Made by a program: the position numbers and the translations under genes. A model generated the notes under the pieces. The model made no database searches and was not told the origin of the DNA. It worked only from the letters and a program-made list of their open reading frames with translations. Below, piece by piece: positions 5,079-28,202 of a stretch of DNA of 30,095 nt. Each line of letters begins with the position of its first letter. Position 1 is the first letter of the stretch. Origin of the DNA: a virus; the IMG/VR virus record IMGVR_UViG_3300037264_002305, positions 1 through 30,095 of that record; one strand, written 5' to 3'.

Positions 5079-5599
5079 GTGCCCTGCACTTCCGCGTCGA
5101 CGTCGAACTCGACCGTTGTATTGTCGCCGCCGGTGGCAGTCCAGTCTGTCCCGTCCGCCTTCACGAGCGCCACGTAGGTCTGCCCGGCCCGTGCGATCGC
5201 CAACCCTGGCACCGCCGATCCCGCATCCACCGCGCGGAGCAGGCCGAGGGTGTCAGTCGCCCCAAACCTGAGCATGTTCGGCGCCGGCAGGCTGGGCAAC
5301 GCGACGCGCAGTTCAACCTCGCCTCCCCCGCAATTCGCGCCGACCACCGCCCCACGATACCGGAGGCGGCGCCCGATCCCTATGCGCCAGCGCAGATACG
5401 GCACCAAACCGGACGACACGCCCCATGACATGCCGTTCTGGCCACTGAACATCGCCGCGTCGAACGGCACGGCTTCCTCGCGCTGCGTCCCGAACGTGAA
5501 CAAGTCGCTGAAGAACGCCAACCAGACGCGCGACTCGATCGTGCCCGTCCGTTCCGAGAACGGCTCTCGCTCCATGAACTTGGGCCAGAGCGTCAGCAT
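5075..5599 (-). CDS. Putative beta-sandwich tail/receptor-binding protein
   Basis: This 174-aa protein begins at an ATG overlapping the gp10-like stop (TGATG at 5601-5597). The second half (about 75-174) follows the spacing of small jelly-roll domains common at the C-termini of phage tail proteins: GMSWGV, then a basic aromatic strand, a LRVALPSLPAP strand-turn, an Ala-Val-Pro-Gly-Leu-Ala strand, and a final WTATGGDNTTVEFDVDAE strand. P22 has its tail needle (gp26) here, but this sequence lacks the heptad pattern of a trimeric coiled coil. It may instead be a compact tail-tip or fibre protein. Confidence 0.7.
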   Translation of the reverse strand: MLTLWPKFMEREPFSERTGTIESRVWLAFFSDLFTFGTQREEAVPFDAAMFSGQNGMSWGVSSGLVPYLRWRIGIGRRLRYRGAVVGANCGGGEVELRVALPSLPAPNMLRFGATDTLGLLRAVDAGSAVPGLAIARAGQTYVALVKADGTDWTATGGDNTTVEFDVDAEVQGT

Positions 5600-7029
5600 C
5601 AGTGCGTCCCCGCTTCCACGTCCACATACGCCGCCGTGATATGCCACGGGATCGGATCGGTCATCGAGATCTCGTACGATCGATTGCGCGCCGAGCCCAG
5701 CCGATCCGCGTAGACCTGCCAGCCGTTTTCACCCTGCGCGCCCACCTCCATCATCTCCTCGTACGCCCAGGTGGCGCCTTGATTGTCGCTGTACGAGAAC
5801 ATGACCTTCGGGACCGATCCTTGGCCGGCCGGCACGCCACGCCCCACCTCAAGATCGAGCGTGAAGCGCTTATGGAACAGGGTCCGTTCTTCCGCTGACA
5901 GGTACGGCGCCCGACGCACCCGACGCAGCGTGGACCCGTCCGCATCTGTATAGGTGTCGATCGACATCGCGTACAACTTCCCCGACGCCCGATCGCCGAC
6001 GATGTGTTTCCCGAACGCGAAGCATGAACAATTCGGACGGCCCGCCTGAAACGATCCCGCGGCGTTGTCGTACCACCCACGCTGGTGCCAGAGTCCTGTC
6101 GCCGCATCCCAGACCCATGTCCGCTTCGCCGACGCGAGATTCAGCACCCAGAACGTGTGCCCTTCTTCCTGGTAGCTGTACGACTGCGCGTCCGCGATGC
6201 TCGCGAGCCCCTGCAGGTCTTTCTCAACCGCGTGCGTGCTGATGGGTTGTGGCTTCTGGCCGATCGCGCGGTAGACCATCGCCGGACCATCCGAGGTCGC
6301 CCCCAGCCACACTGGCGCGTCAGCCACGCCCGCACCGGCCCACGGCGACCCCGTACCGACATCGAAGAATCCGCCCGGCACCGGCTGGAACGGCACCGGC
6401 GCAGTCCCAGCGTTGTACCAGACCTCGCCCGTCAACGGTCCCCACAACCAGATCAGCTCGCCAATCACCCGCATCCCGATCCACGGATCGCCCGCTCGAT
6501 TGCGCGCGAACAGGTCAGTCGGATCCCAGGTGGTGCCGTCCTCGAGCGCCGAGTTCTTCACCTCGTGCGTCAGGCTGTCCAAGTAGAGGAACCAGCCGCC
6601 CAAGAATCCGCCCGCGCGACAGTTGTGTACTGGGTTCGTCAGTGCGTTCGTGGTCAGGTTGTAGCAGTACCCTTCGTCGCCAGCCGTGATGAAGAGCTGC
6701 TCATTCAAGAACCCATTCGTGGAGATGGTCGCCGGCTCGGCGGTGCCCGCCATCACGCCGCGATCAATGAACGTCCCGTTGGCGAAGATCTCGTAGAGCC
6801 CTGTGCCCGAGACCGCGAACACGCGGCCGTTCACATTCGCGACGCCGCGCAGCGGAGACTTCGGCAGCGTCCACAGCGCGATGCCAAGACCAGGCGTCCC
6901 GATCAGTGAGTGCGGCGCCTTCGGCCGACCACTGTTGCCGCCTTCGACGTACATGTTGATGAGCTGCTCGACCGTCGCCCCGCGGTTGCGGGCGAGATAC
7001 GACGGGCCGCAAAACCCCTCGTAGACCAT
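5599..7029 (-). CDS. Tail accessory / DNA-stabilisation protein, P22 gp10-like
   Basis: The protein is 476 aa, very close to P22 gp10 (472 aa). It starts with an aromatic/Asn motif typical of the family (SYLARN, EQLINMYVE, then GTPGL) and continues as repeated beta blades (NGRVFAVSGTGLYEI, NEQLFITAGDEGYCY, LGGWFLYLDSL). Gp10 binds the gp4 ring below the portal and closes the neck, holding packaged DNA. The ATG shares a base with the stop of the gp4-like gene (TGATG, 7031-7027), as expected for subunits made together. Confidence 0.92.
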   Translation of the reverse strand: MVYEGFCGPSYLARNRGATVEQLINMYVEGGNSGRPKAPHSLIGTPGLGIALWTLPKSPLRGVANVNGRVFAVSGTGLYEIFANGTFIDRGVMAGTAEPATISTNGFLNEQLFITAGDEGYCYNLTTNALTNPVHNCRAGGFLGGWFLYLDSLTHEVKNSALEDGTTWDPTDLFARNRAGDPWIGMRVIGELIWLWGPLTGEVWYNAGTAPVPFQPVPGGFFDVGTGSPWAGAGVADAPVWLGATSDGPAMVYRAIGQKPQPISTHAVEKDLQGLASIADAQSYSYQEEGHTFWVLNLASAKRTWVWDAATGLWHQRGWYDNAAGSFQAGRPNCSCFAFGKHIVGDRASGKLYAMSIDTYTDADGSTLRRVRRAPYLSAEERTLFHKRFTLDLEVGRGVPAGQGSVPKVMFSYSDNQGATWAYEEMMEVGAQGENGWQVYADRLGSARNRSYEISMTDPIPWHITAAYVDVEAGTH

Positions 7030-7745
7030 CAGTCGCCCCGCGTGATTGTCAGGCGATTTCGCCCTCGCGTCGGCGGCAGGCCCAGATCCGCCGGCTCGTC
7101 TTCCTCATTTGAGCGCTTCACGGTCGCGATGCTCAAGGCGGCAATCTCGCGCACATCGCTCGGCGCAGGACGGCCGAACTCCGACCCCATCTGCACCGCG
7201 CCGTTGAACTTCAGCGCGTTGTAGTACCCGGGCGGAAAGGTGTACTCGGTGGTCAACACGAGTTCCGTCAGCGCGGTCGGCAGGTAGAGCGCCAGGTCTG
7301 GATCGGCGGTGCGCGGCTCAGGGTAGAGCGTGATGGTCCGCAGCGGGAACCCGCCGTCGTAGTGCAGCGCCCACGGGATCGTCGAGTCGATGTTCTTCAT
7401 CCCGACCTTGGCCCACTGGCGGCTGGTGTAGAGCCGCAGTTCGTATTCGATCTCGCGCTCGGTCCCGGGGAACAAGACGATGCCCGCGCCGTCAATGAAC
7501 ACCGGGCGCGCGCGATTGAAGTTGCCGCCAGGGCCGATCGTGTAGGTCGCGTCTCCAGCCACGAGATTGAAGAGTTCGCGGTTGACCACATGGATGAACT
7601 TCCGCTGCGCCGCCCACGCGTCGAGCATCCCGTTCAGGCACTCGAGCCCGTCGTTCGCGCGTTGGGCAGACAAGGTTTGGCCCGCCGGCGCCGCATTGAG
7701 CGTCCGGAGGCACGCGAACACAATTTCCAGGCCGGTCTTGGTCAT
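7029..7745 (-). CDS. Head-tail neck (head completion) protein, P22 gp4-like
   Basis: This 238-aa protein has an N-terminal helical region (RTLNAAPAGQTL, then GLECLNGMLDAWAAQR) typical of gp4-family tail accessory factors. A beta-rich centre follows (GDATYTIGPGGNF, ITLYPEPR). A C-terminal helical part carries YNALKFNGAVQMGSEFGR, where family members typically show an 'AL.y.lA..la.efg' pattern. P22 gp4 docks on the portal and starts tail assembly. It lies immediately before the gp10-like gene in the canonical order. It is longer than P22 gp4 (166 aa), mostly through the middle insertion. Confidence 0.88.
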   Translation of the reverse strand: MTKTGLEIVFACLRTLNAAPAGQTLSAQRANDGLECLNGMLDAWAAQRKFIHVVNRELFNLVAGDATYTIGPGGNFNRARPVFIDGAGIVLFPGTEREIEYELRLYTSRQWAKVGMKNIDSTIPWALHYDGGFPLRTITLYPEPRTADPDLALYLPTALTELVLTTEYTFPPGYYNALKFNGAVQMGSEFGRPAPSDVREIAALSIATVKRSNEEDEPADLGLPPTRGRNRLTITRGD

Positions 7746-8403: not shown

Positions 8404-8994
8404 CTACCCTCTGAGCCGATACCGATACCGCCAGACGCCGCTCGAGCCGCCGCCACCGCCACTGGCCACCAATGTGGCGAACGGCGCTTGCATCGTCACG
8501 GTCGGCGCGGACACGCCCAACGTCACCGCTGAACTCAGGCTCGCCGGACCAGCCGTGATCGTCACCACCGGACTGGACAACGCCAGGCTGACGCTCGACA
8601 CGCGCGTGACAGTCGGCGCCGAGACCGTGACCGCTGGGGCTCCAGCGACTCTCGTGACAGACGTGACGCGCGTCGTCGTCGGCGCCGAGATGGTCACAAG
8701 CGGGGCGCCAGACGGCAGGGCCACAGTCGCCACGCGCGTCGTCGCTGGCGCGGAGATGGTCACGACCGGAGCGCCAGCCACGAGCGTTTGTGGACTGGAC
8801 GCCGACAGCGTTGCGGCTGGTGCTGAGAGCGTCACCACGGCGGCGGCGAGGGCGAGGGCCACCGTCGCTAACCGCGAAGCCGCTGGGGCCGAGCACGTCA
8901 CCGTCGGTGCACCAGCCGTGAGGACTTGGTCATCTCCTGACCCGACCTCGGCCTCGCCGACGTAACTCGCTCCGCCGATATAAAACGAGGGCAT
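8404..8994 (-). CDS. Tandem 22-residue beta-repeat protein
   Basis: This 196-aa protein consists from about residue 25 to 177 of seven degenerate repeats of about 22 residues. The consensus is A-G-A-P-x-V-T-[IV]-S-A-P-x-x-T-R-V-x-S-V. A glycine run (GGGGGSSG) and a short aromatic/basic tail (VWRYRYRLRG) follow. The Val/Thr alternation with Ala-Pro turns suggests a stacked beta fibre or solenoid, and the tail looks like a docking peptide. The start ATG shares a base with the upstream stop (TAATG, 8996-8992). It contains almost only Ala, Thr, Val, Ser and Pro. I do not recognise a family; a small fibre or virion decoration is plausible. Confidence 0.8.
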   Translation of the reverse strand: MPSFYIGGASYVGEAEVGSGDDQVLTAGAPTVTCSAPAASRLATVALALAAAVVTLSAPAATLSASSPQTLVAGAPVVTISAPATTRVATVALPSGAPLVTISAPTTTRVTSVTRVAGAPAVTVSAPTVTRVSSVSLALSSPVVTITAGPASLSSAVTLGVSAPTVTMQAPFATLVASGGGGGSSGVWRYRYRLRG

Positions 8995-9971
8995 TACAGC
9001 AACTCCACCGTCGCGCCTTCGACGACGATCTCATCCGCCGCGTTGCTCACACTCATCGTCATCTGGACCGTCAGGGTGCTGTTCCCTGCGTCGGAGTCGA
9101 TGGCCGCAGACCCGCCGATGTTGGAGATGCCGAGCCGGTTCGAGGTGTTGGCGAACGCGAGGCCCCCGATCCCGGTCGTCGCCGCGTCCGGTGCGATTTC
9201 CAGCACCCCGCGCGTGAAATGACCCGACAGAGCCTGATCGTTATTGGCCTGAGCGACGAGGAGGAAATCCACAGACCACGGTTTTCGTACAGCGTCCGCG
9301 ACGGCCGCCACGGTCGCGTCCGCGTACAGCGTCGTCGCACCGTAGGTGATCGTGAGCGTGAGCGTCGGCGCCCCGGAATTGAAGAGGAAGTTGCCGCCGA
9401 TGCGGACGCGCAAGATCCGGCCCGCGAGAAAGAGGCCGTTCGCAATCACGACCCCGGAGCCCGTCTTGTTGAGGACGTGGACGGCCGACGCCGTCGTGTT
9501 CGTCGTCTCGGCCGTCGTCGTGCGGTAGATGCAGATCGGTGACGACGGAGACACCCGCCGGTCGATGCACTCGGTGGTCGCGATGGCGGTATCATTCGCG
9601 GCCACGAAGACTTGGGCGATGACGACGTCGTTGGCGGTACGGGCGGGAGGCTTGGGGGCAGCCGCTGGCGTGCCTGCCCGCACAGCAATGGCACCTGCCG
9701 ATGTGATGACAATGAGGTCGATGCGTGGATTGGTCGCGTCTGCCGTCGTAATCGTCGCATCGGCGGCTGCCACCGCGAACATGACCCTATTCGAGAGGAC
9801 CGCGCCCTTGGCGACGGCCGGGGTCATATCGGCCCCGCCCGTCACGGCTAATCCGCTTAGAACACAATCGATCCCCGCGATGCCAGCGACCAGCACCTCC
9901 AAATCCTCTTGGAAGAGGATGCTTTGGATGTTGTTGACGCCTTCGCCCTTGTCAGGGATCGTGAACGCCAT
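8994..9971 (-). CDS. Tail/virion protein with C-terminal jelly-roll domain
   Basis: This 325-aa protein has an N-terminal region with the phage tail-protein pattern DCVLSGLAVTGGADM, then ATNPRIDLIVI and GTPAAAPKPPA, as in baseplate or fibre N-terminal domains. The second half (about 150-325) carries a beta-sandwich signature: FLAGRILRVRIGGNFLFNSG, LTITYGATTLYAD, then RKPWSVDFLLVA, which recurs at the C-termini of virion proteins in many environmental phages. It has no signal peptide, unlike the fibre genes further upstream. Its ATG directly abuts the preceding TAA. Confidence 0.82.
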   Translation of the reverse strand: MAFTIPDKGEGVNNIQSILFQEDLEVLVAGIAGIDCVLSGLAVTGGADMTPAVAKGAVLSNRVMFAVAAADATITTADATNPRIDLIVITSAGAIAVRAGTPAAAPKPPARTANDVVIAQVFVAANDTAIATTECIDRRVSPSSPICIYRTTTAETTNTTASAVHVLNKTGSGVVIANGLFLAGRILRVRIGGNFLFNSGAPTLTLTITYGATTLYADATVAAVADAVRKPWSVDFLLVAQANNDQALSGHFTRGVLEIAPDAATTGIGGLAFANTSNRLGISNIGGSAAIDSDAGNSTLTVQMTMSVSNAADEIVVEGATVELL

Positions 9972-10764: not shown

Positions 10765-11097
10765 CTACTGCCCGGCCTGTTTCCAACTCGCGATGGCGGC
10801 TTTCAGTGCGGCCCACGCCTTCCGGAGCGCCACGTAGGCGTCCACAAAGCCGCTGAGCGCCTGCGCGATCTCCGGCGAGGCCGCAGACACCTTCGTCAAC
10901 ACGTCCGCCTTCTTCTCGGCGCCGGCGATCGGCGCCTCGTCGACCTTGCGGACTGCCTTGAAAATCTGGATCGCCTTGCCGGCAGCCGAACTGCCCGGCA
11001 CGACGGATGACCCGATCGTGAGCGCCGCGGTCCCCACCTTCGCCCAGACCGTCTTGTTCCCGAGCTTCTTCAAGATGCCGACGAACGGGTTCTTCAT
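10765..11097 (-). CDS. Hypothetical helical protein with hydrophobic N-terminal half (110 aa)
   Basis: The start is fixed by an ATGA overlap with the preceding gene (11097-11094). Residues 1-45 are basic and then moderately hydrophobic (FVGILKKLGNKTVWAKVG, TIGSSVVPGSSAAG), followed by amphipathic helices ending KAWAALKAAIASWKQAG. There is no catalytic motif. It belongs to a block of small membrane-associated genes that could serve lysis or envelope entry, but no known holin family is recognised. Confidence 0.7.
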   Translation of the reverse strand: MKNPFVGILKKLGNKTVWAKVGTAALTIGSSVVPGSSAAGKAIQIFKAVRKVDEAPIAGAEKKADVLTKVSAASPEIAQALSGFVDAYVALRKAWAALKAAIASWKQAGQ

Positions 11098-11444
11098 TGC
11101 GACCCGCCCTTCGCGGCGTACGTGGCAGCCTTCACGTTGAATGTCTGCCCTGGGTAGTTCTTCTCGAACATCGTCGCGATGCGCTCCTCGGTCTGCTTGA
11201 TCGCCAGCGTCCGAGCCTCGTCGACCTGTGAGGCATTGACCAGGATGCCCGCCTCGACCTGGGCACCAATCCCCTGCAGCGCCCCGAGATTCTGGTTGCA
11301 CTGGCCGAGCGCCGACAGACGCTGAGCGGCGATCAGTTTGTAATCGGACGGTTGCGGCGGGGCCTGTGTCGAGACCGCCACCAGACTCCCACCAAACATC
11401 ATCACCACAAGAGAGGCCACGAGGCCCTGTGCGGTCTGTTTCAT
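11094..11444 (-). CDS. Small exported protein with signal peptide (116 aa)
   Basis: The ATG at 11444 lies 8 nt downstream of a GAGG; a GTG three codons earlier is the alternative. The N-terminus (MKQTAQGLVASLVVMMFGG, then SLVAVSTQA) has the charged, hydrophobic and small-residue regions of a Sec signal peptide or anchor. The remainder is helical and Gln/Ala-rich (LIAAQRLSALGQCNQNLGAL), with an NYPGQTFNV segment. It has one cysteine, so no internal disulfide. Possibly a periplasmic spanin-like or entry factor; not assignable. Confidence 0.7.
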   Translation of the reverse strand: MKQTAQGLVASLVVMMFGGSLVAVSTQAPPQPSDYKLIAAQRLSALGQCNQNLGALQGIGAQVEAGILVNASQVDEARTLAIKQTEERIATMFEKNYPGQTFNVKAATYAAKGGSQ

Positions 11445-11478
11445 CGGTTTCACCTCGGCGCCTATTCTACGCCCGAAG

Positions 11479-11754
11479 TCAGATCAGACCTGGCGGCAGA
11501 TTGCGGAGGACGGAATCTCCCCCCAAGGCTGCGGTCAGCGCGGTGACACCACCCTCGACCCAGCGCGGGATGGCCAACCTCCAACTGAACTTCGCCAACG
11601 CCGCGATGGTCGCCTCGTCGTCGGACTTGCTGGCCAGCATCTCCGCCATCTGGTACTTCTTGAACTGCACGTAGTCGGCCCGCATGGTCGCGCACATGCC
11701 CGCGAGAAAGGCCGTCAGGAACGGATGCTGCTGTACAAAGGTCGCTAGGTCCAT
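11479..11754 (-). CDS. Small probable membrane-associated phage protein (91 aa)
   Basis: It begins MDLATFVQQHPFLTAFLAG, a hydrophobic helix, followed by MRADYVQFKKYQ, a middle acidic segment, and a second hydrophobic helix near RWVEGGVTALTAALGG. This two-helix plan (HPF...GxxxA...DY...F.KW, then FRW..G...G) is typical of short phage proteins found in virion or lysis neighbourhoods. A holin-like role is possible but unproven. It starts 10 nt after the previous stop. Confidence 0.72.
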   Translation of the reverse strand: MDLATFVQQHPFLTAFLAGMCATMRADYVQFKKYQMAEMLASKSDDEATIAALAKFSWRLAIPRWVEGGVTALTAALGGDSVLRNLPPGLI

Positions 11755-11764
11755 TGGGCGCCCC

Positions 11765-12088
11765 TTACTTCAAGGTCTTCTGCGTCCACGCGTTCCGCGC
11801 CGTTTCGTAGCGGATCCGGCATCCCGACTTCGACTCGGCGGTGTCGGCGAAGTACATGCAGGTCTGGTAGTCGCTGGTGAGCGCGTTGAGCCACACGGCC
11901 GCTTCGATCCGCGACTGCGCCCCTCTCGCCTCGACGTCGTGCTCCTTGACCGCGCCGGCCACGCTCCATCCGGTGTACCCCATCATGGCGACGGACCCGA
12001 TCGCCATGATCACCATCGCTGCGGCCATCATCGGGCCGGGCTGCCACCGACGCAAACTGTCCGATACGTTCGTCACGTTCTCCAGCAC
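11765..12088 (-). CDS. Single-pass membrane protein (107 aa)
   Basis: An AGGAGGGG site just upstream of a GTG at 12088 decides the start over an in-frame ATG inside the previous gene. After a short cytoplasmic stretch (VTNVSDSLRRWQ) comes one strong membrane helix (MMAAAMVIMAIGSVAMMG, about residues 20-40), then a mostly helical external part with two cysteines (YQTCMYF and KSGCRIRY). Its position in the cluster of small membrane genes suggests envelope function such as lysis or superinfection control; no family is recognised. Confidence 0.75.
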   Translation of the reverse strand: MLENVTNVSDSLRRWQPGPMMAAAMVIMAIGSVAMMGYTGWSVAGAVKEHDVEARGAQSRIEAAVWLNALTSDYQTCMYFADTAESKSGCRIRYETARNAWTQKTLK

Positions 12089-12101
12089 GGCCCCTCCTGT
12101 T

Positions 12102-12323
12102 TTACCGACACGTCCAGACGAACACGCCAACGACTTGCCCTGACGTGACGACGCGCACGCTGTGTCCGCCGTCCAATTCGTGGATCACCGAGAGCTGCGG
12201 CCACGGGGCCTTCTCTTGCTGTAGCGACGTGGGCACCGGACGACAGTCCGCCGTCTTCCGCTGCGATGCGCCCACCACGATGCCGGTCAGCAATGCGATC
12301 GCCGCGACGACGACTCTCCGCAT
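12102..12323 (-). CDS. Small exported/anchored protein (73 aa)
   Basis: The ATG at 12323 has AAAGGAG 6 nt upstream; this site decides the start. Residues 1-20 (MRRVVVAAIALLTGIVVGAS) are a signal peptide or N-terminal anchor. The mature part has two cysteines (ADCRPV and the C-terminal WTCR), which could pair in the periplasm, and a short beta-rich segment (HSVRVVTSGQVVGVFVW). No lipobox is clear. It follows the beta-helix gene by 22 nt. Confidence 0.72.
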   Translation of the reverse strand: MRRVVVAAIALLTGIVVGASQRKTADCRPVPTSLQQEKAPWPQLSVIHELDGGHSVRVVTSGQVVGVFVWTCR

Positions 12324-12345: not shown

Positions 12346-14313
12346 TCACCGCGGATCGTGGTTCCGGCCGCCGACATGCGTCCACGCGAGCATCGACGGG
12401 ACAGGCGCAGGTGCGGGCGCGAGCGGCGTCCACGTCGAACACACGCCCGTCATCACACAGGAGACGGCGTTATTGACCACCGGCACGTTCGCCCCGCAGT
12501 CGGTCGTGCCGATACTCAGCGTGTCCGTGCAAGCGGCTTTGTAGGCTGACCCGGCCGCGAGCCGGAAGTCGCCGCCGTAGTTGCCGCTGTTGTAGTTCTC
12601 GAAGGTCACATTGGCCCACGCCGCCGGGAAGCCCGCTTGGCTGGCCGGATAGTTCCCAGCCGTGCCGCCGACAATCACATTGCCGAGATACGAGCCGCCG
12701 CCGTCGCACGCGCCGTTGAAGTCCGATGTGGAGAACGGCGTGCCGCCGTCATTCCAAATATTGTTGATGACCACGCACGAGAACGAACCCAGTTCGTTCG
12801 TGCCGCTCTGTCCGACCGCTGGCCCCGACTTGTTCAAACAGGTGTTATTGCCCACCGTCACGTCGTCGCCGTCAGTCTGGAAGATGTAGAGGCAGTGCCC
12901 GTCTGTGCCTGCACCACGCCCGAACGCCGCTCCATCAACATGCATCACGTTGTTGTAGATGGCGAGATCGTGGCCGTTGTTCGTGTTGGGGCCGTTGCAC
13001 TCCGCGAGACAGAACTTGACCGCGTTGGCAATGCCTGTCAGCCAGAGGTTTTTTCGCAACGTCTGATGGCAGGTCAGCTTGTCGAGATCTTCATCCCCCT
13101 CTTTGAAGTTCACCGATGTCTCTTGTGCCGCCGCCGTCGCGCCGTTCGAGGCGTAGGAGTCCATGAAGATGTTGCCTTCAATTAGGACGCGGCAGCTTGC
13201 CTTCGTCTCGTAGAGGTTCTTGTAGTTGTTGAGCCCCGCGCCGATCATCGCGATCCAATCCAACTCTTTTCGGAGCAGGTTCCAGCGGATATCGATGTCG
13301 GTCGGATGATCGTTGGTTCCGCCCCCGCCGCAAAGGTCCGGGAATACATTCTCGCCTGACGCGGAGATGTAGTTGTTATACACCCCAACGACGTTTGCAA
13401 AGCCGCAGATGAGCACGCCTTGGCTGTCGCCATCCAGTTCGAGCATGTTGCTGATGTAGGAGTTCGACACGGCGCAGCGGTCGCATCCAGTGATCGCAAT
13501 CCCACGGCCCGCGCCAGCCGTCGGGTCGCCGTGGATATAGAGGCGGTCGAAGATCAGGTCAGCCGTGCCCGCGTCCCCCACATCGACGTTCGCCGTGCCG
13601 ATGATCACCGATGTTTGAACCCCTTGGTTCGCGGTGCCGCCCGTTGGGGGCCGGAGGGTGAAGCCCATCACCACATAGCCGTCCGCGCCGTTCTCGAACA
13701 GCAGGACTTGGTGCGGATAGGTGGCATCCCCCACGAGTTCGGGGAACATATCCACATCGAAATTGGCGGTCGCCGTCACGTCATCCCCGCCGCCCTGCAC
13801 GAGATTCGCGCCATACGAGGTGCAGTAGCGGCCAGTCGAGTTCCCGCACGACCCAGTGAGGTTGTCAGGAATGAGCCGATTTCCTACGGCTGGTAGCGAC
13901 CCGATGCAGGCCGCGTTTGGGTGGATGTAGACAATCCCCGTGCCGGTCTTGGACGGGGCAACAAAGGCTCCGGCAGGGGCTTGAAACGACGCCCCGCCGT
14001 TCCCGGCCCCCGTGCAGCCGAGCGCGATTGTGTCCCCACGTCGCGCATCGGTGAGCGCCGTCTGGAAGTTTTGACCCGCATCGACCGTGATGGTCTTGCA
14101 CGCGCCCGTGGGTGTGACGCCGACATCAATCTCCGTGCAGGTCGGAATCGTGTAGGTGGTGTTCACGTAGCTCGTTGGGAGATCCGCCGGGGAGGCGTCC
14201 ACCGTCCAGCCCGCGCCGATGACGATGCGGACCTTGATCCGCGTCTGCGCCGACACGCTCGCCCACGCGCCGAGCGTGAGCACCACGATCACCAGCGCCT
14301 TCGGGAGTCTCAT
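12346..14313 (-). CDS. Secreted cysteine-rich right-handed beta-helix protein
   Basis: This 655-aa protein starts at an ATG overlapping the upstream stop (ATGA, 14313-14310). Residues 1-22 (MRLPKALVIVVLTLGAWASV, then SA|Q) are a good Sec signal peptide. The body shows repeated short strands ending in Asn/Gly (VYNNYIS, IRWNLL, IEGNIFMDSY, IYNNVMHVD, VGNNTCLN), the look of pectate-lyase-type parallel beta-helices used in phage tailspikes and polysaccharide-degrading enzymes. The mature chain holds 22 cysteines, unusual for a cytoplasmically folded virion protein. I infer an exported carbohydrate-interacting protein or an atypical tailspike; no catalytic residues can be assigned by eye. Confidence 0.82.
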   Translation of the reverse strand: MRLPKALVIVVLTLGAWASVSAQTRIKVRIVIGAGWTVDASPADLPTSYVNTTYTIPTCTEIDVGVTPTGACKTITVDAGQNFQTALTDARRGDTIALGCTGAGNGGASFQAPAGAFVAPSKTGTGIVYIHPNAACIGSLPAVGNRLIPDNLTGSCGNSTGRYCTSYGANLVQGGGDDVTATANFDVDMFPELVGDATYPHQVLLFENGADGYVVMGFTLRPPTGGTANQGVQTSVIIGTANVDVGDAGTADLIFDRLYIHGDPTAGAGRGIAITGCDRCAVSNSYISNMLELDGDSQGVLICGFANVVGVYNNYISASGENVFPDLCGGGGTNDHPTDIDIRWNLLRKELDWIAMIGAGLNNYKNLYETKASCRVLIEGNIFMDSYASNGATAAAQETSVNFKEGDEDLDKLTCHQTLRKNLWLTGIANAVKFCLAECNGPNTNNGHDLAIYNNVMHVDGAAFGRGAGTDGHCLYIFQTDGDDVTVGNNTCLNKSGPAVGQSGTNELGSFSCVVINNIWNDGGTPFSTSDFNGACDGGGSYLGNVIVGGTAGNYPASQAGFPAAWANVTFENYNSGNYGGDFRLAAGSAYKAACTDTLSIGTTDCGANVPVVNNAVSCVMTGVCSTWTPLAPAPAPVPSMLAWTHVGGRNHDPR

Positions 14314-15143
14314 CGATGCCCTCGCTTCGTCACCGACTGCACGACGCGGACCGGCCGTGGCGGCAGATCGAATCCGAGCCGTTCGATCCACGTCACGAGG
14401 CGACCCCCGCCGCGCAAGATGAAATTGGGCAGGGTGCCAAACGGGAAGGTTGGGCCGCCCGCATCCTCGCCAAGCGCCAGCAGGACGTAGATGATCACGC
14501 GGTCGGGCGACGCAAACGTGTAATCGTGCGAGAAGTTCCCGGCGCCGGACGCCCGCTTGTCGCCGGTGTTGGCGTAGATGCCGCCGTTGCTGTTCTCGGC
14601 CCGCTGTACCGTCGTGCCCGCCACGGTCGGGTCGTCATTGATCGCCAATGTTCCGTGAATGAGCGCGGCCCCAGTCGCCGCCACCGCGTCGGTCGCGAAC
14701 GGCGAGTTCCCCGTCGCGGTGCTGTTCGCCACGCTGGCCTGGATGCACGACGTGGGATCGATCCCCGAGAACTCGGTCAGCGTTTCGACTTCGGCGGTCT
14801 GGCCGGCGTCCGTCACCGTGACCTGCGTGGTCCCGCCGACCGCATCGCAGACCGGCCAGACGTTCAGCCGATAGCCGGACTGGTCCCGACTCACCGGCGT
14901 CTCGAACGCATCGCTTTGGTCCGAGACGATCGAGCCGGTTGTCGCCGCGTTGTGAAACTCGGAGTAGACGTAGCCGTTATTCGCTCCGACGCCCGTCAGC
15001 GAGAGTTGGAACGTCGAGGCGTCCGCCGTGCCCGTCGCCGCCTGCACAAATGCGTAGTTGAAGGCCGCGCGCACCCGGGCGACCCACGGGCCGGTCACAA
15101 GGCCCAGGGCGAGGACGAACGCCGCCAGGACGACGCGCGTCAC
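14310..15143 (-). CDS. Exported beta-sandwich protein with signal peptide
   Basis: The 277-aa reading begins at a GTG that overlaps the fibre gene stop (GTGA, 15143-15140). Residues 2-26 (TRVVLAAFVLALGLVTGPWV, then ARVRA) form a Sec signal-like segment with an A-x-A type end. The mature part is beta-rich, low in Lys, with two cysteines (WPVC and TSC) that could form one disulfide. Its composition (Thr/Ala/Gly/Asn) is that of a phage fibre or adhesin domain; strands such as VTVTDAGQTAEVETL and VIIYVLLALG suggest a lectin-like sandwich. The C-terminal 50 residues are basic. Function unknown. Confidence 0.78.
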   Translation of the reverse strand: MTRVVLAAFVLALGLVTGPWVARVRAAFNYAFVQAATGTADASTFQLSLTGVGANNGYVYSEFHNAATTGSIVSDQSDAFETPVSRDQSGYRLNVWPVCDAVGGTTQVTVTDAGQTAEVETLTEFSGIDPTSCIQASVANSTATGNSPFATDAVAATGAALIHGTLAINDDPTVAGTTVQRAENSNGGIYANTGDKRASGAGNFSHDYTFASPDRVIIYVLLALGEDAGGPTFPFGTLPNFILRGGGRLVTWIERLGFDLPPRPVRVVQSVTKRGHR

Positions 15144-18109
15144 TTGATGCCCCTGTACCGCCACATCAGACCGACGATCTGCGCGGCGTCGTTGATCGTG
15201 TCGGCGCCGTCGCCCGGCTCGTGATACAGGCGCACCCACCATTGCTGACCGGCCGTGCACGTCACGAGCGGTTTGTCGGCGGTCGCCTCGACGGTCAGCG
15301 TGGCGTCGTTCAGGTCATTGGTTGTCCCATCGGCCGCATCCGTCACCGAGCTGACCGACGTGCTGTACGCCGTCGGGATTTGCGCGCTGTTCCCCGCGCA
15401 GATGCCTTGCACTTTCCACAGGACGTTCCCCGTCGTCGCCGGCGTCCGCCACTTGATCAGGAACTCGACCGCGAGCGCGAGGTCGATGTCCGGCGGCAAG
15501 GGCACAGAGAACTGCACCTCCTGCGTGCCCGAGTCCGCGAAGTTCACCAGTGGAACGACGACCGTCGTCCCAGAGAAGGTCGCCGTCGCCGCGCCGCTCG
15601 TCGTCGTGTTGAACCCGAGCGAGGCCGTGCCGTTCTGCGCTGACGCGGGCGTGAAGATCGCGACGATCGGGATCGTGATGACGTTGCCCGTGTCTTCCGC
15701 GTTGATCGTCTTGCCTATCAGAATCTCAGTTCCTGTTAAGGTCCCAAGCGTGCCCGTCGTCGGGAACGTCACATTCGTCGCGCCCGTCGAGGTCATCGTG
15801 AACGAATGCGCCCCGGACCGAATGAACGCCCCTGCCGACAGGGTGAATGTTTGCCCTTGAATGCTCGTCAGGTTCGCCAGCGTGTCAATCGCCGCTTCAA
15901 CCGTCGCCTCCGTCGTCGCCCCGAGCGTGTCAATCGCGTCGAGCGTGGTCGTCCCGGCCGCATCCGACAAGACCGTCACGCCAGCGATCTGGAAGTTCTT
16001 CGCCGTAATCAGGTTCAGGTTCGTGCCGTCATAGGTGAAGTCGCTTGTCCCTTCGAGCGTCCCGTCGCCCGTCCAGACGGCCATCTGGTTGTTGGCCGGC
16101 GTCCCCACCTTCGAGACATCCCCACCGCCCGCGACGGTGGACCACGACAGCACGCCGTCGCCGATGACATCCTTGAGGTACGTGTTGGCCCCGCCGACCG
16201 TTGGCGGCAAAACGTAGGTGATGCTGGCTGCCTGCGCGCCCACTTTGACGGCCGTGTAACTGGTGCCGCCCCCACTCGGCTCCAACAAGCGGACCTCTGC
16301 GGCCGACGTGAATCCGCCAATGTTGAGAACCATTGCGACCGACGCGCCGAGGTTCAGCGTCGCCGTCTCCCCAAAGGCATTGACCGTCGTCGCGGTCGTG
16401 TTGAACAGCGCGAACGTCGCCGATGGCGTCGTGATGGACGTCGTGATCGCGGGCGACGTCCCAAAGACGCACGCGCCGGTCCCGGTTTCCCCCGTCACCA
16501 CCGCACTCCAATTCGTGCAGGACGGCGCCCCGAACCACGTCGCAAAGCCCGCCGGAATCGTCATCCAGTCGGTCTGCGTAGCGGAAAAATCGTAGAAGGC
16601 CAGCGCGTCCGCGCCGGGTGCCGCCGCCGAGTCGATGATCCCCATCTCGGAGGCCAACGTGGCATACGTCACCGCGGTCGGGGCTGCCGCGCCACCAGTA
16701 ATGTTCGCCACCACCGTGTCGGCGGCTTGTGTCGCAAGACCAGACAACGGAAGGCTCGAGGCATTCGTGAGCGTGATCGACGTTGGCGTCCCGTACGCGT
16801 TCGCTCCACTAAACGTCCACGTCCCACCGCCCGCGACGGTCATCCCAGTCGTGCCGAGAATGCTCGCGGTCATGCCGAACTGGAATTGCGTGACCGGCGT
16901 GCCGGCCGCGTCCGCGATGTACTGCGCGTAGAACCCGTTCGCATCCGCCGTGTCCGTGAACCGCTTCGTCTCCAGGACCACATTAGCCGTCAGGTCTGCG
17001 GTGCTGTTCAGGAGGTCGAACACCGTGCCAGCCGACGACCGGCTCGACGTCCACTGTGTCGCCATCGTCAGGAGGTCGATCAGCCCGTCTGCAGTCGCGT
17101 CACCGATATTGTTCCAGAGTGTGGCTCCGCCGGCCGCACCGCCAAGCGCCACCCACGCCGACCCGTTATACGTGCAGAGCGTACGCACCGCACCGGCGCC
17201 GCTGTCACACGCGCCCGCCGCCGAGTCATCCGTGATGATGAGCGTCCAGCCAGAGACCGGAGAGCCAGGGAAGGCTGTCGCTTCAGGCCAGTCCATGTAG
17301 GTCGAGAAGATCGGGCTGACGATGGTTGGATTCGTCCCTCGGACCAGCCCGCCCGTACCGAGGGACGACGCACCGCCAAGGGTGTCCACCATCGCGACGA
17401 CCGTCGTGTCGTCCAGCACCGTCCTCGCTGCCGCCGTGACGGTCGCCGTCTCAGGCACGCCCGTGGAAGCCGTCGTCCGAACGATGAACTGATCCTGCGC
17501 GAGATCCGCCAGCATCGCCAGCGTCACGCCCGCCGTGGCGACTTGGACGTCGTTCGCGTTGACGGTGATACCCGGGCCAGCGCCGACATTGAGCGTCACC
17601 GGGCCGACTGTGCCACCGCCAGTCAAACCCGATCCGGCCGTCACGGATTCAATGTCCCCCGCACCTGGCGTCCCGCCTAGAGCGTTTGGTCGGCCGCTGC
17701 CTCGTGTCAGCGTCACGCGCGCGGTGGTGCCAGGCGTGAAGGCCGAGGCCCTCAATCGCACCCGGACGAGCCCGGTGTTGGCCACCGAGAACTGTCCCGC
17801 CGACGTGATCTGTGTGACGCCCGTCCCGTCCGCCAGCGCCTGCCCTTGGTAGGACGCCCAAGTCACGCCGTCCACGCTGGTTTCGATCTCGAGCGTGCCG
17901 GTGAATCCTTGGGTCACGCCCAGCGTCACGGAGGGGTTGTTGGGGATGTCGAATATGACGCAGTTGGTCGTCGCCACGCCGGTCGTTACGCAGTCCGTCA
18001 CGCCGGACGATTGCGCCGCAATGAACTTCGGTCCTTCGACCTGCTGCGCCCACGCCGGAACCGCTACACTGAGCCCCGCGATCCAGAGGGCACACAGTCG
18101 CTTTTTCAC
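15140..18109 (-). CDS. Long tail-fibre-like protein with N-terminal signal peptide
   Basis: This 989-aa protein starts at a GTG preceded by a near-perfect AGGAGG. Residues 1-22 (KKRLCALWIAGLSVAVPAWA|Q) are a classical Sec signal peptide. Domain order: an Ig/sugar-binding-like domain (about 40-150), fibre-shaft repeats (VTAGSGLTGGGTVGPVTLNV), a TYNGSAWVALGG phage-fibre motif near 320, long Thr/Ala/Gly shaft segments, and a C-terminal jelly-roll ending with GQQWWVRLYHEPGDGAD and MWRYRG. The mature chain has 8 cysteines arranged as neighbouring pairs. Normal fibres carry an N-terminal virion-attachment domain; here a secretion signal occupies that place. Confidence 0.85.
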   Translation of the reverse strand: MKKRLCALWIAGLSVAVPAWAQQVEGPKFIAAQSSGVTDCVTTGVATTNCVIFDIPNNPSVTLGVTQGFTGTLEIETSVDGVTWASYQGQALADGTGVTQITSAGQFSVANTGLVRVRLRASAFTPGTTARVTLTRGSGRPNALGGTPGAGDIESVTAGSGLTGGGTVGPVTLNVGAGPGITVNANDVQVATAGVTLAMLADLAQDQFIVRTTASTGVPETATVTAAARTVLDDTTVVAMVDTLGGASSLGTGGLVRGTNPTIVSPIFSTYMDWPEATAFPGSPVSGWTLIITDDSAAGACDSGAGAVRTLCTYNGSAWVALGGAAGGATLWNNIGDATADGLIDLLTMATQWTSSRSSAGTVFDLLNSTADLTANVVLETKRFTDTADANGFYAQYIADAAGTPVTQFQFGMTASILGTTGMTVAGGGTWTFSGANAYGTPTSITLTNASSLPLSGLATQAADTVVANITGGAAAPTAVTYATLASEMGIIDSAAAPGADALAFYDFSATQTDWMTIPAGFATWFGAPSCTNWSAVVTGETGTGACVFGTSPAITTSITTPSATFALFNTTATTVNAFGETATLNLGASVAMVLNIGGFTSAAEVRLLEPSGGGTSYTAVKVGAQAASITYVLPPTVGGANTYLKDVIGDGVLSWSTVAGGGDVSKVGTPANNQMAVWTGDGTLEGTSDFTYDGTNLNLITAKNFQIAGVTVLSDAAGTTTLDAIDTLGATTEATVEAAIDTLANLTSIQGQTFTLSAGAFIRSGAHSFTMTSTGATNVTFPTTGTLGTLTGTEILIGKTINAEDTGNVITIPIVAIFTPASAQNGTASLGFNTTTSGAATATFSGTTVVVPLVNFADSGTQEVQFSVPLPPDIDLALAVEFLIKWRTPATTGNVLWKVQGICAGNSAQIPTAYSTSVSSVTDAADGTTNDLNDATLTVEATADKPLVTCTAGQQWWVRLYHEPGDGADTINDAAQIVGLMWRYRGIK

Positions 18110-18126
18110 AAGGCCTCCTAAGACAA

Positions 18127-18156
18127 GGGCCGGTAGCCCAGAAGAGCCACCGGCCC
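18127..18156 (-). terminator. Hairpin between two exported-protein genes
   Basis: An inverted repeat of about 11 bp (GGGCCGGTGGC with GCTACCGGCCC, one G-U pair) with an 8-nt loop is followed on the minus strand by TTGTCTT and then the AGGAGG site of the fibre gene. It could be a weak intrinsic terminator or an mRNA-stabilising or translation-modulating hairpin. The U-tract is imperfect. Confidence 0.5.
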
Positions 18157-18188
18157 GAACGTCAACACTGGTCAGGCCGACCTCTAGG

Positions 18189-18953
18189 TCAGCCGAGTGT
18201 GCAACCGCGCGCCGCGATCATGTACCAGTGCAACCCGTCCGCTCGGATCGTCACACCGTTGCCGATGACCGCACCGAGGGTGCAGACATCAGCGGTCGCA
18301 CCGCCGTTGTTGAACCCCTCCGTGATCGTGATCGTGTGCGCCTGCGCCGTGTTCGACGTGATCTCCATCACCATGCCGCTCTGAAGGGCGGTCGGGGGAA
18401 CGAGGGTCATGGCACCAACGCCGGCAGCCGTGATCAAACTCAGGCCTGGTTGGACCGCAATGGCGCCAGTGGTGGAGTAGCTCGCCGCCGGCGCGTTCGT
18501 GAAGCTCGGAATCCCGTTCAGCCGGTACCGGACCCACGCGCTCCCGTGGCATTGGTAGACCGTCCCGTTCGTCAGGACGCGCGGCAGGAACCGCTCAGCC
18601 GTCGCCGTGCATCCCCCACTGCGCGGGTCCTCGCCAGAGAAGCGCTGCGGCACGCCTGTGAAGGCGACGGCGCCAGAGGCGTGCGCCTGCACTTTGGAGC
18701 CGGCGAAGCCTCGAAACACGCGAATCCGCGTGCCCGTGATCTCGAGGACGCGCATTGCCTCCCCGTCGACCACGATCAAGTCGTCGACCGCGACCGTGGA
18801 CGCGGACGTCAGATTGATGTCCCTGGCCGTGATGGTCGCCGCCGAGCTCAGCGTGGTCTGGTTGACGGTCACTTGGGCGAAGAGAGGCGGCAGCCCGAGC
18901 ACCAGGCCGAGGACCGCGATCGTCGCTACTGCATATCGAGTGAAAGCACGCAT
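18189..18953 (-). CDS. Exported fibre-like protein with signal peptide (254 aa)
   Basis: The ATG at 18953 has AGGAG 9 nt upstream. Residues 1-26 (MRAFTRYAVATIAVLGLVLG, then LPPLFA|Q) are a Sec signal peptide. The next part carries the motif VDGEAMRVLEITGTRIRVFR, then GFAGSKVQAHASGA, common in phage tail and fibre proteins. A segment with TNGTVYQCHGSAWVRY resembles the 'text-of-sample' strand of fibre domains. The C-terminal third is beta-rich (AHTITITEG, then VTIRADGLHWYMI). Four cysteines are present in the mature chain, two of them near the C-terminus. First gene of the exported cassette, immediately downstream of the coat gene. Confidence 0.8.
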   Translation of the reverse strand: MRAFTRYAVATIAVLGLVLGLPPLFAQVTVNQTTLSSAATITARDINLTSASTVAVDDLIVVDGEAMRVLEITGTRIRVFRGFAGSKVQAHASGAVAFTGVPQRFSGEDPRSGGCTATAERFLPRVLTNGTVYQCHGSAWVRYRLNGIPSFTNAPAASYSTTGAIAVQPGLSLITAAGVGAMTLVPPTALQSGMVMEITSNTAQAHTITITEGFNNGGATADVCTLGAVIGNGVTIRADGLHWYMIAARGCTLG

Positions 18954-19055: not shown

Positions 19056-20267
19056 TCAGGAGCAGACCTGGACGCCGAGTTCCTTGCGGAGCGCGTCCGT
19101 GCCGTAGAGCACGTCCACGCGCACCGGGTTCTCGTCTTCCTTGATGTCGTAGTCCATCTGCATCCGCAGCGAGAGACCGACCTGGTCGTCCGCCGCGCGC
19201 TCCGACATCTCGAGGTTCTTGTGCAGCGGCAGATCCGCCGACACCAGGACGATCGCGTCGCGGTGGAACACGAAGCCCCGACGCGAGCGGTTGTTCGCCG
19301 CGCCGAGAATCGTCAGCGCCGCGTTGTTGGCCGGCGCCGAGTCGACCGTCTGTTCCGCGCCAGAGATGATGATCTCCGGCTCGATCGCGGCCGTCAGGTT
19401 CCCGGCCCCGTCCGAGGACACATCCGCCGTCACGCGGAACTGCTGGAGTTCGCCCGTCGCGAAGCGGTTCTTCGGGTTGACGGACTGGACCCCGTCAATC
19501 GTGAAGATGTCGCCTTCGACGAGTCGCGGTGCCGCCGCCGCGGTCCAAGCGTCCGTGATCAAGCTCGAGCCCACCTGGTCGGCGCCGTTGACGAGCGGCG
19601 TCCCACCGAGCGGCCCGACCTGGAACAGCGGGCAGTTCTGGTCCATGACCCACGAGAGACCGACCGCTCGCTTGATCATGCCGGTCGTGTACTGCGCCGC
19701 GATGGAGGCCGACGCTTCGGTGAGGCCCTTCAGGGCGTCCACGATCGTGATCTGCATCTTCGGCGTGTAGCAGACGTTCCGCATCCCCGGGGGACACGAG
19801 TTGTTGTCGAGGATCATGCCGGCCGTCATGTAGGTCAGCAGCGCGTTCGGCACGGTGCCGGGCGTCCCGACCGCCTGGTAGAACTGCGTCGAGACGGCGC
19901 AGACGTCCTGGTCGATCTGGTTGGCGAGCTGGCTGATGGCGGGGACGAGGATCCGTTCGCGGAACTGCGAGATGTGCAGCAACCGCTCCACGTCGGTGAA
20001 GTTCATGCCGATGTGCTTTTTCTTGTCGAGCCGCACCGGCACGGACGTTTCCTTGGTGTTCTGCATCACGAGCGTGTCGCCGTCGCTGACGATGTAGCGG
20101 GGCGGCTTGCGCGCGTTCACGACGTCGCCGATCTTGGCGCCCTCGCGTCCGAACTTGTCGTCGTACTGACGGTTCACGAGGTACGTGACCTTCAGGTTGT
20201 TCTCGAGGACGTCCAACGCTTCGTTGGTGATCTCCTCGTTGGTCAGCAGTGTATTGGCCGCAGCCAT
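19056..20267 (-). CDS. Major capsid (coat) protein, P22 gp5-like
   Basis: The start is the ATG at 20267 with AGAGGAG just upstream; a longer in-frame reading lacks this. The 403-aa protein has the P22 coat-family layout: an N-terminal helix (TLLTNEEITNEALDVLENNL), the RKPPRY and GMNFTDVE segment, a helix with NQIDQDVC, the insertion region, then GDIFTIDGVQSVNP, GELQQFRVTAD and the C-terminal FHRDAIVLVSADLPL. P22 gp5 is 430 aa. It forms the HK97-fold shell on the scaffold encoded directly upstream. Confidence 0.93.
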   Translation of the reverse strand: MAAANTLLTNEEITNEALDVLENNLKVTYLVNRQYDDKFGREGAKIGDVVNARKPPRYIVSDGDTLVMQNTKETSVPVRLDKKKHIGMNFTDVERLLHISQFRERILVPAISQLANQIDQDVCAVSTQFYQAVGTPGTVPNALLTYMTAGMILDNNSCPPGMRNVCYTPKMQITIVDALKGLTEASASIAAQYTTGMIKRAVGLSWVMDQNCPLFQVGPLGGTPLVNGADQVGSSLITDAWTAAAAPRLVEGDIFTIDGVQSVNPKNRFATGELQQFRVTADVSSDGAGNLTAAIEPEIIISGAEQTVDSAPANNAALTILGAANNRSRRGFVFHRDAIVLVSADLPLHKNLEMSERAADDQVGLSLRMQMDYDIKEDENPVRVDVLYGTDALRKELGVQVCS

Positions 20268-26372: not shown

Positions 26373-27104
26373 TCAGGACATCCAGCCCAAGCGCCCGCCC
26401 ACGGATTCCTCGCTGTACTTCTCGGTCTTCACCGGCGGCGTCTTCATCCAGCCCAGCGGTTTCAGGCACAGGTACCGGCAGCAATCCATTAAATGGTCGT
26501 GCGCCTTGACGATCTTTTCCTTGTCGTTGCGCCGGTACATCCGCATCTCGGCAAAGAAATTCTGGAGCGACGCCATCACCTTCAGCCGGCCGCTCACCAT
26601 GCGGACCCAGACTTCGGTCAACCCGGCATCGACCTCGTTGTCGGCGAGCTGGAGATTCAACCCGAGTTTCTGGTAGGTGGTCATCAGGCGCTTGCCGTCC
26701 GCTTGGCTGCGTCCGCGCGCCGCCGGGTCGATCAACCCCGGCATCCACGAGCCGCGCGCCTTGACGGCCTGCGCGTGGACCTGGGGCGGCTGCTCAGCGC
26801 CGTAGTGCTCGCTGTAGAGGTAGAGAATGTCGCTCTCGCGATCGTGGGCCGCAAAGAGCGCCGCCGTCCGGTTCCACCCGACGTCCAGCGCGTAGCCGCG
26901 AGGCCAGAACTCCGGGATCTCGAAGTCTTTGACCGTCAGTTCTTCTTCGGCAATCTTGAAGACGCGGCCTTTGCCGAGGTACGGCAAGCCCTTCGTGCGC
27001 GCGTCCCGCTGCCACGGCGGGATGCTCTTGATGAGGTCGGCTTTGTCCTCTTCGCTCAGGTGAACGGCGTCGTTCCACCCGACTTGAACGTAGTATTTGC
27101 TCAC
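26373..27104 (-). CDS. terL: Large terminase, nuclease domain (separate gene)
   Basis: This 243-aa ORF begins at a GTG that overlaps the ATPase ORF stop (GTGA, 27104-27101). It opens with the conserved terminase segment VQVGWNDAVHLSEEDKADLI and RDARTKGLPYLG. It then carries the RNase H-like nuclease with candidate metal ligands Asp74 (YALDVGW), Asp126 (GLIDPAA) and Asp203/Asp207 (DHLMDCC). It cuts concatemeric DNA during headful packaging. ATPase plus nuclease total 481 aa, close to P22 gp2 (499 aa), so no domain is missing. A sequencing indel or recoding at the junction cannot be excluded. Confidence 0.9.
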   Translation of the reverse strand: MSKYYVQVGWNDAVHLSEEDKADLIKSIPPWQRDARTKGLPYLGKGRVFKIAEEELTVKDFEIPEFWPRGYALDVGWNRTAALFAAHDRESDILYLYSEHYGAEQPPQVHAQAVKARGSWMPGLIDPAARGRSQADGKRLMTTYQKLGLNLQLADNEVDAGLTEVWVRMVSGRLKVMASLQNFFAEMRMYRRNDKEKIVKAHDHLMDCCRYLCLKPLGWMKTPPVKTEKYSEESVGGRLGWMS

Positions 27105-27817
27105 TCGAGCCCCAGATCGTATTCGTTCGATTCTTCCTGCACGGCGTCCGGATTCATGTAGCTCGCCACAAGATCCGTCATGCCCTTCACCGGGATGAAC
27201 GTCAGGAGCATCAGCCCCTGCGTCGTCAGCAGGCGCATGAGCTGCTCGGTGTAGATCTCGAGCGGCGGTTCTTCGTCGTCCGAGATCAAGTCTTTCGACT
27301 CGCCCTCGAACGCCTCGCGTCCCTGCTCGTAGGCCATGAAGCTCAGCCAGGACCGTCCGCCCGACTTGTGCTTCACCCAGATGCTTTCGACGGCGTCGGC
27401 CGTCCCGACCTTGTTTGTCGTGTATTCGATCAGGTGACGCGGAATCAGCCCGCCGACGTCCGACCGCGGCGGACCGAGCAGCGTGTACTGGAGAATGTCG
27501 CGGACCTTTTTGCTGGTCGTCCCGCAGGCCCACGCGTTGATCGGCTTCGTGAAGCGCCGGCCAGGCCACCAGTCCGGATACAACCCCGTCAGGTGCAGCG
27601 CCTGCGAGAAGCACGTACAGACGGTCTTCCCGCAGCGGTTGGCGCCGAACATCGCCACCTCGCGGTGGTGCGCCTGCGCCGCGAACCATTCCATGTGCTT
27701 CGGGTAGCGGTCGCGCGCATTCGGTCCGGAGTCCGTGTAGTAGAGGTTCAGCGCGTTGGCTTGGATCGCCCGCGCGGCCCGGACGAGCTCGACGGACAGC
27801 ATCGCGACGTCGGTCAT
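27101..27817 (-). CDS. terL: Large terminase, ATPase domain (separate gene)
   Basis: This 238-aa ORF starts at an ATG overlapping the upstream stop (ATGA). The Walker A motif is GANRCGKT (58-65), Walker B is LISDDEEPP (about 177-185), and the coupling motif lies in LTFIPVKGM (205-213). This is the packaging motor that translocates DNA through the portal. It ends in ...EYDLGLE at 27101, just before the block that normally continues into the nuclease domain; that block is encoded by the next ORF in the -1 frame. Confidence 0.92.
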   Translation of the reverse strand: MTDVAMLSVELVRAARAIQANALNLYYTDSGPNARDRYPKHMEWFAAQAHHREVAMFGANRCGKTVCTCFSQALHLTGLYPDWWPGRRFTKPINAWACGTTSKKVRDILQYTLLGPPRSDVGGLIPRHLIEYTTNKVGTADAVESIWVKHKSGGRSWLSFMAYEQGREAFEGESKDLISDDEEPPLEIYTEQLMRLLTTQGLMLLTFIPVKGMTDLVASYMNPDAVQEESNEYDLGLE

Positions 27818-28125
27818 GCGGAGGCCAGCGCCTGCAGGGTCCGCTGGGGCCACTTCAGCCGCGGCTTGGGCGCCACCGGCGTCGCGTCCCAGATCGCCAT
27901 GATCTCCAGCACCCCGTTGCAGGTCAGCGACGAGGTCCGCAACCCGTACCGCTTCGCCACGTTGACGATCGCCACCTTGAAATCCCGCAGCGTCCGGTAG
28001 CGACGCGGCTGGTCGTCCTCCGTCAGCGTCCACACCTGGCCGTCCAGATACATCCCGTGCCGCGCCTTCGCGACCAACGCGCGCCGGCGATCGAGCGTCA
28101 TCTGGCGCAGTTCGATCGGGTTCAT
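27814..28125 (-). CDS. Hypothetical protein upstream of terminase (103 aa)
   Basis: It begins at an ATG overlapping the 26-aa ORF stop (ATGA, 28125-28122) and ends in an ATGA overlap with the terminase ATPase gene. A basic N-terminus (LRQMTLDRRRALVAKARHG) precedes a small beta segment (DGQVWTLTEDDQPRRYRTLR) and a helix (DFKVAIVNVAKRYG). It could be a small-terminase or accessory packaging subunit by position; no helix-turn-helix is certain. Confidence 0.72.
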   Translation of the reverse strand: MNPIELRQMTLDRRRALVAKARHGMYLDGQVWTLTEDDQPRRYRTLRDFKVAIVNVAKRYGLRTSSLTCNGVLEIMAIWDATPVAPKPRLKWPQRTLQALASA

Positions 28126-28202
28126 CGACGGACTCGCCACGTCCAGCGCGCCCCCCGCGCGCCGCCGCCGGCTTCTCCAAACCACTTCCCCGTGTTCGCC
28201 AT
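28122..28202 (-). CDS. Very small coupled ORF (26 aa)
   Basis: A strong GGAGGGAG lies 6 nt upstream of the ATG at 28202, and the stop overlaps the next start (ATGA). The product begins MANTGKWFGEAGGGARGARW. The frame is also open upstream to an ATG at 28247. A G6 run in the middle makes an indel that would fuse this leader to the 103-aa protein possible. Either a tiny leader gene that couples translation, or the displaced N-terminus of the next protein. Confidence 0.5.
   Translation of the reverse strand: MANTGKWFGEAGGGARGARWTWRVRR

Follow-up and report, generated by a model that had tools for sequence, protein, structure and literature searches.

The 30,095-base window analyzed here, a linear viral record (IMG/VR record IMGVR_UViG_3300037264_002305), carries four adjacent genes (A to D) in the interval between its coat and neck genes, each predicted to begin with a Sec signal peptide (SP). 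Comparison with related contigs suggests that an uncultured group of short-tailed phages bears signal peptides and matching Cys pairs on its fibers and spikes, with the implication that parts of the particle may be finished outside the cytoplasm. We consider it somewhat probable that A to D are virion appendages (decoration, fiber, spike) of a P22-like podovirus, which would be routed through Sec, become disulfide-bonded, and dock around lysis. The four genes and their predicted signal peptides are as follows, with / marking the predicted cut.

18189..18953, minus strand: gene A, 254 amino acids (aa), coat-adjacent SP-bearing putative appendage protein; mature residues 27-254.
18876..18953, minus strand: predicted Sec signal peptide of A, residues 1-26, ending ..PPLFA/Q.
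15140..18109, minus strand: gene B, 989 aa, fiber-type protein; N-domain Cys C40 and C50.
18047..18109, minus strand: predicted Sec signal peptide of B, residues 1-21, PAWA/QQ.
14310..15143, minus strand: gene C, 277 aa, 2 mature Cys.
15066..15143, minus strand: predicted Sec signal peptide of C, residues 1-26, lowest score among the four.
12346..14313, minus strand: gene D, 655 aa, 22 mature Cys.
14248..14313, minus strand: predicted Sec signal peptide of D, residues 1-22, ASVSA/QT.

The starts of A to D were fixed by ribosome sites or stop-start overlaps: AGGAG lies 5' of A and AGGAGG 5' of B, C starts at a GTG overlapping the TGA that ends B, and the ATG start of D shares an ATGA with the stop codon of C. 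The resulting N-termini are MRAFTRYAVATIAVLGLVLGLPPLFA/QVT for A, MKKRLCALWIAGLSVAVPAWA/QQV for B, MTRVVLAAFVLALGLVTGPWVARVRA/AFN for C and MRLPKALVIVVLTLGAWASVSA/QTR for D. Signal peptides were evaluated with a scorer of our own design, not SignalP, which considers n-region charge, the hydrophobic core and the -3/-1 rule, and allows GTG and TTG starts (threshold 5.2). All four genes displayed these sequence features of Sec and signal peptidase I substrates (scores of 7.1, 7.3, 6.1 and 6.8 for A, B, C and D), in agreement with the initial annotation, which had described four adjacent SP-bearing genes of 254, 989, 277 and 655 aa between coat and neck. For D, the scorer placed the cut 4 residues earlier than ASVSA/QT. 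No membrane-like segments were detected in any mature chain of A to D. The mature Cys counts of 4, 8, 2 and 22, all even, were reproduced on recounting.

As controls, core virion open reading frames (ORFs) were scored at every start within the first 120 codons, and 11 of 922 passed (~1%), as did 61 of 1260 shuffled N-termini (~5%). It is thus very unlikely that A to D would all pass in succession by chance, and their relatives provide a stronger test. A to D were the only large virion genes of the window to pass the scorer; the small genes E and H passed as well.

Related viral contigs were gathered with coat and neck profiles, and several contained SP-bearing fiber-type genes immediately 3' of the coat gene. 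Scans with the window coat, A and C as single-protein queries did not reveal any close relatives, and alignments were therefore required. The A family was built by aligning A with three relatives, followed by two scans, the second using patterns of the mature domain outside the signal. It comprises 88 non-redundant members, two with unreadable 5' ends having been removed; 65 carry a predicted SP (SP+) and 23 do not (SP-). The proteins of contigs L299 and L311 were called SP+ by eye, the scorer having passed neither. In nearly every contig the family adjoins a P22-like coat gene, including the members found by mature-domain patterns only. Window A shares the homologous mature domain, the coat-adjacent place, the conserved Cys pair (C115 and C135) and the SP.

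Within the A family, a clear correlation between predicted SP and Cys was observed. Both conserved Cys columns were filled in 61/65 SP+ members, versus 0/22 SP- members. Among complete proteins, the total number of Cys was even in 57/59 SP+ members, versus 10/21 SP- members (Fisher p 2e-6, with kinship ignored). Even Cys in four proteins could occur by chance (1 in 16), and the even-Cys argument is retained solely because of this family-wide count. The coat-adjacent proteins of P22-like phages that lack an SP (L010, L011, L255, L296 and others) are homologs of A, encoded directly or close behind the coat gene, but differ from A in having no SP, no conserved Cys pair, and Cys totals unbiased toward even numbers. 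An exception to the rule is a pair of sister A proteins (L324 7434-8201 and L321 8454-9176), which differ in SP, and of which the SP+ one lacks the conserved Cys pair.

The position of the signal is also regular. In SP- members the domain is separated from the initial Met by one or three residues, and in 58/65 SP+ members the predicted cleavage lies three or four residues ahead of the domain. Because of this match in spacing, the signal looks like an add-on, whose removal leaves nearly the same mature protein. The 65 divergent SP+ members share a basic n-region, a core, and small residues at -3/-1, mostly followed by Gln. The SP pattern of A to D is not due to chance, nor is it confined to the window contig.

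A second appendage family was examined using a tail-fiber/tailspike N-domain profile (hidden Markov model HB, HMM HB), built from four named phages and run on the fetched contigs. Of its 75 non-redundant members, 64 SP- proteins begin with the domain, 10 are SP+ (L305 and L324 being called by eye), and one has an incomplete 5' end. In the 10 SP+ members, from sister phages, the SP directly precedes the head-binding domain. This domain contains exactly two Cys in 9/10 SP+ members, the tenth being truncated by the contig end, versus no Cys in 61/64 and one Cys in 3/64 SP- members (p 2e-8). The SP+ domain matches a solved tailspike head-binding domain (7eeq, E 2.3e-10) and the tail spike 9vyg. 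The N-terminal domain and the gene position after the ejection genes are thus common to SP+ sister phages and to P22-like tailspikes (Xanthomonas phage PBR31; PDB 7eeq and 9vyg), whereas the sister-phage versions add a cleavable-looking Sec signal and two Cys within the domain. The initial annotation pointed out that a normal phage fiber has an N-terminal virion-attachment domain where A to D have an SP; in the sister phages this domain is present, directly behind the SP.

SP and Cys pair hence covary in two unrelated appendage families. In a third, defined by the N-domain of B and scored at a threshold lowered to 4.6, an SP was present in 17/17 members with a readable 5' end, and a close Cys pair in most. 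Window B has the homologous N-domain, the close Cys pair and the SP.

To these comparisons we added five viral records of 38-46 kb, of which up to 40 kb each was examined, in two pieces, with simple gene calling. Each recognized spike or fiber gene was SP+ with several Cys. Terminase, portal, scaffold, coat, neck and ejection proteins were SP-, and most ejection proteins were Cys-free. In most of the five records the SP+ spike gene is located after the ejection genes, as is the tailspike gene of PBR31. No SP-less receptor-binding candidate was recognized in the five records, although an SP- fiber could be missed by simple gene calling. The lack of an SP-less substitute is our main argument that the exported proteins may be the virion's own receptor-binding parts. 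Fiber genes of PBR31, MW202520, MW202674, MW202483, EBPR podovirus 1 and DSL-LC05 have no SP, and the trait is therefore not general among P22-like phages.

A model of the mature A alignment showed a confident N-domain (residues 1-120, predicted local distance difference test (pLDDT) mostly 79-98), while the remainder was poor. The N-domain fold matched virion proteins (9in6_M, Z 11.4; 8rk3_b, Z 10.6; 9n71_A; 8jov_1, Z 9.6), and a profile of the A domain matched the minor tail protein 8vjh at 7e-8. The fold of the A N-domain is thus shared with VP1 (9in6_M), the JBD30 baseplate (8rk3_b), the GP4 portal-tail protein (8jov_1) and minor tail 8vjh; to our knowledge, 9in6_M, 8rk3_b, 8jov_1 and 8vjh are not Sec-exported. 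F1-ATPase barrels score Z 8-9, slightly below the virion proteins, and since they are near-equal, the A fold alone is weak evidence and no proof of function. For D, no Pfam, PHROG or PDB match was obtained, and the AlphaFold model had a pLDDT of 31; N-N-x-hydrophobic repeats hint, by eye only, at a beta-helix. The earlier designations of D as a beta-helix and C as a jelly-roll were not confirmed.

Contigs L166 and L167 repeat the full layout of the window: coat, SP+ A, three SP+ genes (110, 329 and 588 aa), then neck. A BLAST search against 50,697 phage records did not reveal any match to B, C or D, and the sole match to A covered 65 residues, in cyanophage S-CAM9. A scan of the A N-terminus against bacterial genomes gave no match. 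For C, only a weak look-alike was seen, in L103.

Two further arrangements of A-family genes were noted. Two copies per phage are present in L171 (1013-2502) and L174 (4251-10450), one L174 copy being the C-terminal portion of an SP+ protein of 635 aa. In L102 a homing-endonuclease-like gene (5848-6654; GIY-YIG by eye) lies between the coat gene and an SP+ A.

The late genes of the window lie on the minus strand in a P22-like operon, ordered as terminase, portal, scaffold, coat, A to D, small genes, the neck genes (gp4-like and gp10-like) and the genes for ejection proteins. Its P22-type coat, portal, scaffold, gp4/gp10 neck and ejection genes, in conserved order, are those of a P22-like podovirus. 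PHROG matches were obtained for the coat (1.8e-70), portal (6.7e-93) and gp10-like head closure protein (6.2e-85); a scaffold and a DNA-ejection protein are further neighbors. Features of the operon outside A to D include:

19056..20267, minus strand: P22-like coat gene, directly upstream of A.
12102..12323, minus strand: gene E, about 73 aa, 2 Cys, small exported or membrane protein after D; its belonging to the A to D set is uncertain.
11094-12323, minus strand: small genes E to H, about 73-121 aa, membrane or exported, directly 3' of D.
8994-9971, minus strand: gene L, SP-less, baseplate- or head-fiber-like; PHROG 20556, weak DUF4815.
5599..7745, minus strand: gp4-like and gp10-like neck genes, downstream of A to D.

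Genes E to H gave no family matches except one weak Rz-like match, and are possibly a lysis cassette. The large terminase gene (26373-28243, minus strand) is seemingly split over two overlapping frames near 27100, which appears to be a frameshift, an assembly error or an intron-like break.

These observations suggest the following sequence of events. Coat, A, B, C and D would be transcribed late together with the head and neck genes, as indicated by gene order and stop/start overlaps. Sec export and signal-peptidase cleavage would then produce a mature N-terminus near that of the SP-less relatives, as the comparison above supports. Disulfides would form in the periplasm, consistent with the covariation of SP and Cys pair. 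Finally, breach of the inner membrane at lysis would allow docking on heads and tails through retained attachment domains, which are seen in sister phages and not in A to D. Judged from sequence, export of the SP+ proteins to an oxidizing compartment is well supported and disulfide formation is supported, while docking of the exported appendages on particles is inferred from the retained attachment domains. In its full form, which we regard as an evenly balanced proposal, two compartments would share the completion of the particle, with heads, necks and ejection proteins forming in the cytoplasm, and receptor-binding appendages being Sec-exported, oxidized in the periplasm, and docked only when lysis mixes the two pools.

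The initial annotation had offered either a role in the periplasm or at the cell surface, or assembly on the virion by an unspecified route. Export is borne out by the covariation of SP and Cys in two families, and the on-virion option is favored over a purely extra-virion role because the attachment domain is retained behind the SP in sister phages and the A N-domain matches virion proteins. We consider it unlikely that the exported proteins work off the virion, by masking receptors, modifying capsule or O-antigen, binding competing phages or aiding release. A Sec signal and Cys pairs would suit a permanent extracytoplasmic home, small membrane or exported genes adjoin D, and acyltransferase-like genes lie, by sequence inspection, beside the SP+ spikes of an Acidobacteriota phage remnant described below. 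However, exported chains of sister phages retain virion-attachment domains, A genes occupy the virion-operon slot of their SP- homologs, and the five near-complete genomes offered no recognizable SP- spike as an alternative receptor-binding protein.

Dual targeting, in which a cytoplasmic fraction is built into virions as usual and an exported fraction has a second role, seems quite improbable. By our own reasoning, abundant late phage proteins could saturate Sec, and mixtures of SP+ and SP- proteins in one genome (L305, L326, L013) indicate that both routes can coexist. However, Cys pairs within the head-binding domain are best explained if the docking form is oxidized, and cytoplasmic forms would keep an uncleaved SP at the attachment end. 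It is highly improbable that the hydrophobic N-terminus is a buried anchor or trimerization segment in the virion instead of a working SP, since 65 divergent members share the basic n-region, the core, the small -3/-1 residues and, for the most part, a following Gln, the predicted cut lies almost where SP- relatives begin, and covariation with Cys is not expected of an anchor. An artefact of wrong starts or random hydrophobic N-termini, to which a home-made scorer permitting GTG/TTG starts is open, has a negligible probability, given false positives of ~1% for core virion genes and ~5% for shuffles versus 65/88 in the A family, and starts fixed by ribosome sites and stop-start overlaps.

Several observations weigh against assigning A to D to virion appendages finished by export. 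HMM HB did not detect the head-binding domain in A to D of the window, and the contig stops short of the place where a tailspike gene usually lies. In a tree of the A family from which the Cys columns were excluded, the best topology implies six changes of SP state, but well-supported branches require just one; because of this weak support for repeated gain or loss, independent origins are not claimed. Mixed phages exist, for example with an SP- A beside another SP+ spike (L305, L326 and L013). The SP- tail-like gene L indicates that the window virion may bear other, ordinary fibers too.

In the textbook view, tailed-phage assembly is cytoplasmic. The coat proteins pIII and pVIII of filamentous phages are virion proteins that carry signal peptides and enter or cross the inner membrane, but these phages differ in being extruded at the membrane without lysis, in not being tailed, and in having no cytoplasmic heads. 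Signal-endolysins, spanins and superinfection-exclusion lipoproteins are instances of phage use of host Sec, as predicted for A to D. Secreted phage effectors differ from the SP+ spikes in that they are not fiber or spike proteins with virion-attachment domains. We found no report of Sec-exported tail fibers or spikes in tailed phages in the open-access literature. The target proteins of phage diversity-generating retroelements are reported to lack signal peptides (PMC6199706).

To investigate the host, bacterial genomes were examined. A coat relative is located in an Acidobacteria metagenome-assembled genome (MAG). In a sample of the phylum of this MAG, 2/3 tailspike-domain matches were SP+, one of them in a 6.4 Mb chromosome. 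This chromosomal tailspike adjoins a protein resembling small-terminase-like genes of two viral records, and an endolysin-like gene beside it resembles those of two other viral records. The Acidobacteriota phage remnant L345-L346 (G249:C1, about 5,994,000-6,008,000) contains a small-terminase-like gene, Cys-free 261- and 547-aa proteins, three SP+ genes (315, 456 and 1216 aa), an endolysin-like gene and acyltransferase-like genes. In the phylum to which a Woeseia MAG belongs, 398 genomes gave six tailspike-domain matches, none preceded by an SP on inspection. The A domain gave five weak matches only in 396 Acidobacteriota genomes; those in L337, L338 (the L255 contig) and L339 resemble SP-less homologs, and that in L341 lies inside a long SP-scored ORF. 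The coat relative in an Acidobacteria MAG, the SP+ matches in its phylum and the lack of an SP before the matches in the Woeseia phylum suggest that the Acidobacteriota are probably the host group of the SP+ phages.

An SP and Cys pair ahead of a head-binding domain form a simple sequence mark for finding such phages, and the Acidobacteriota phage remnant points to a host group for testing the two-compartment idea. If the idea is correct, exported, disulfide-bonded spikes would represent a new route to finish a virion, and would account for a recurrent genomic pattern among uncultured phages.

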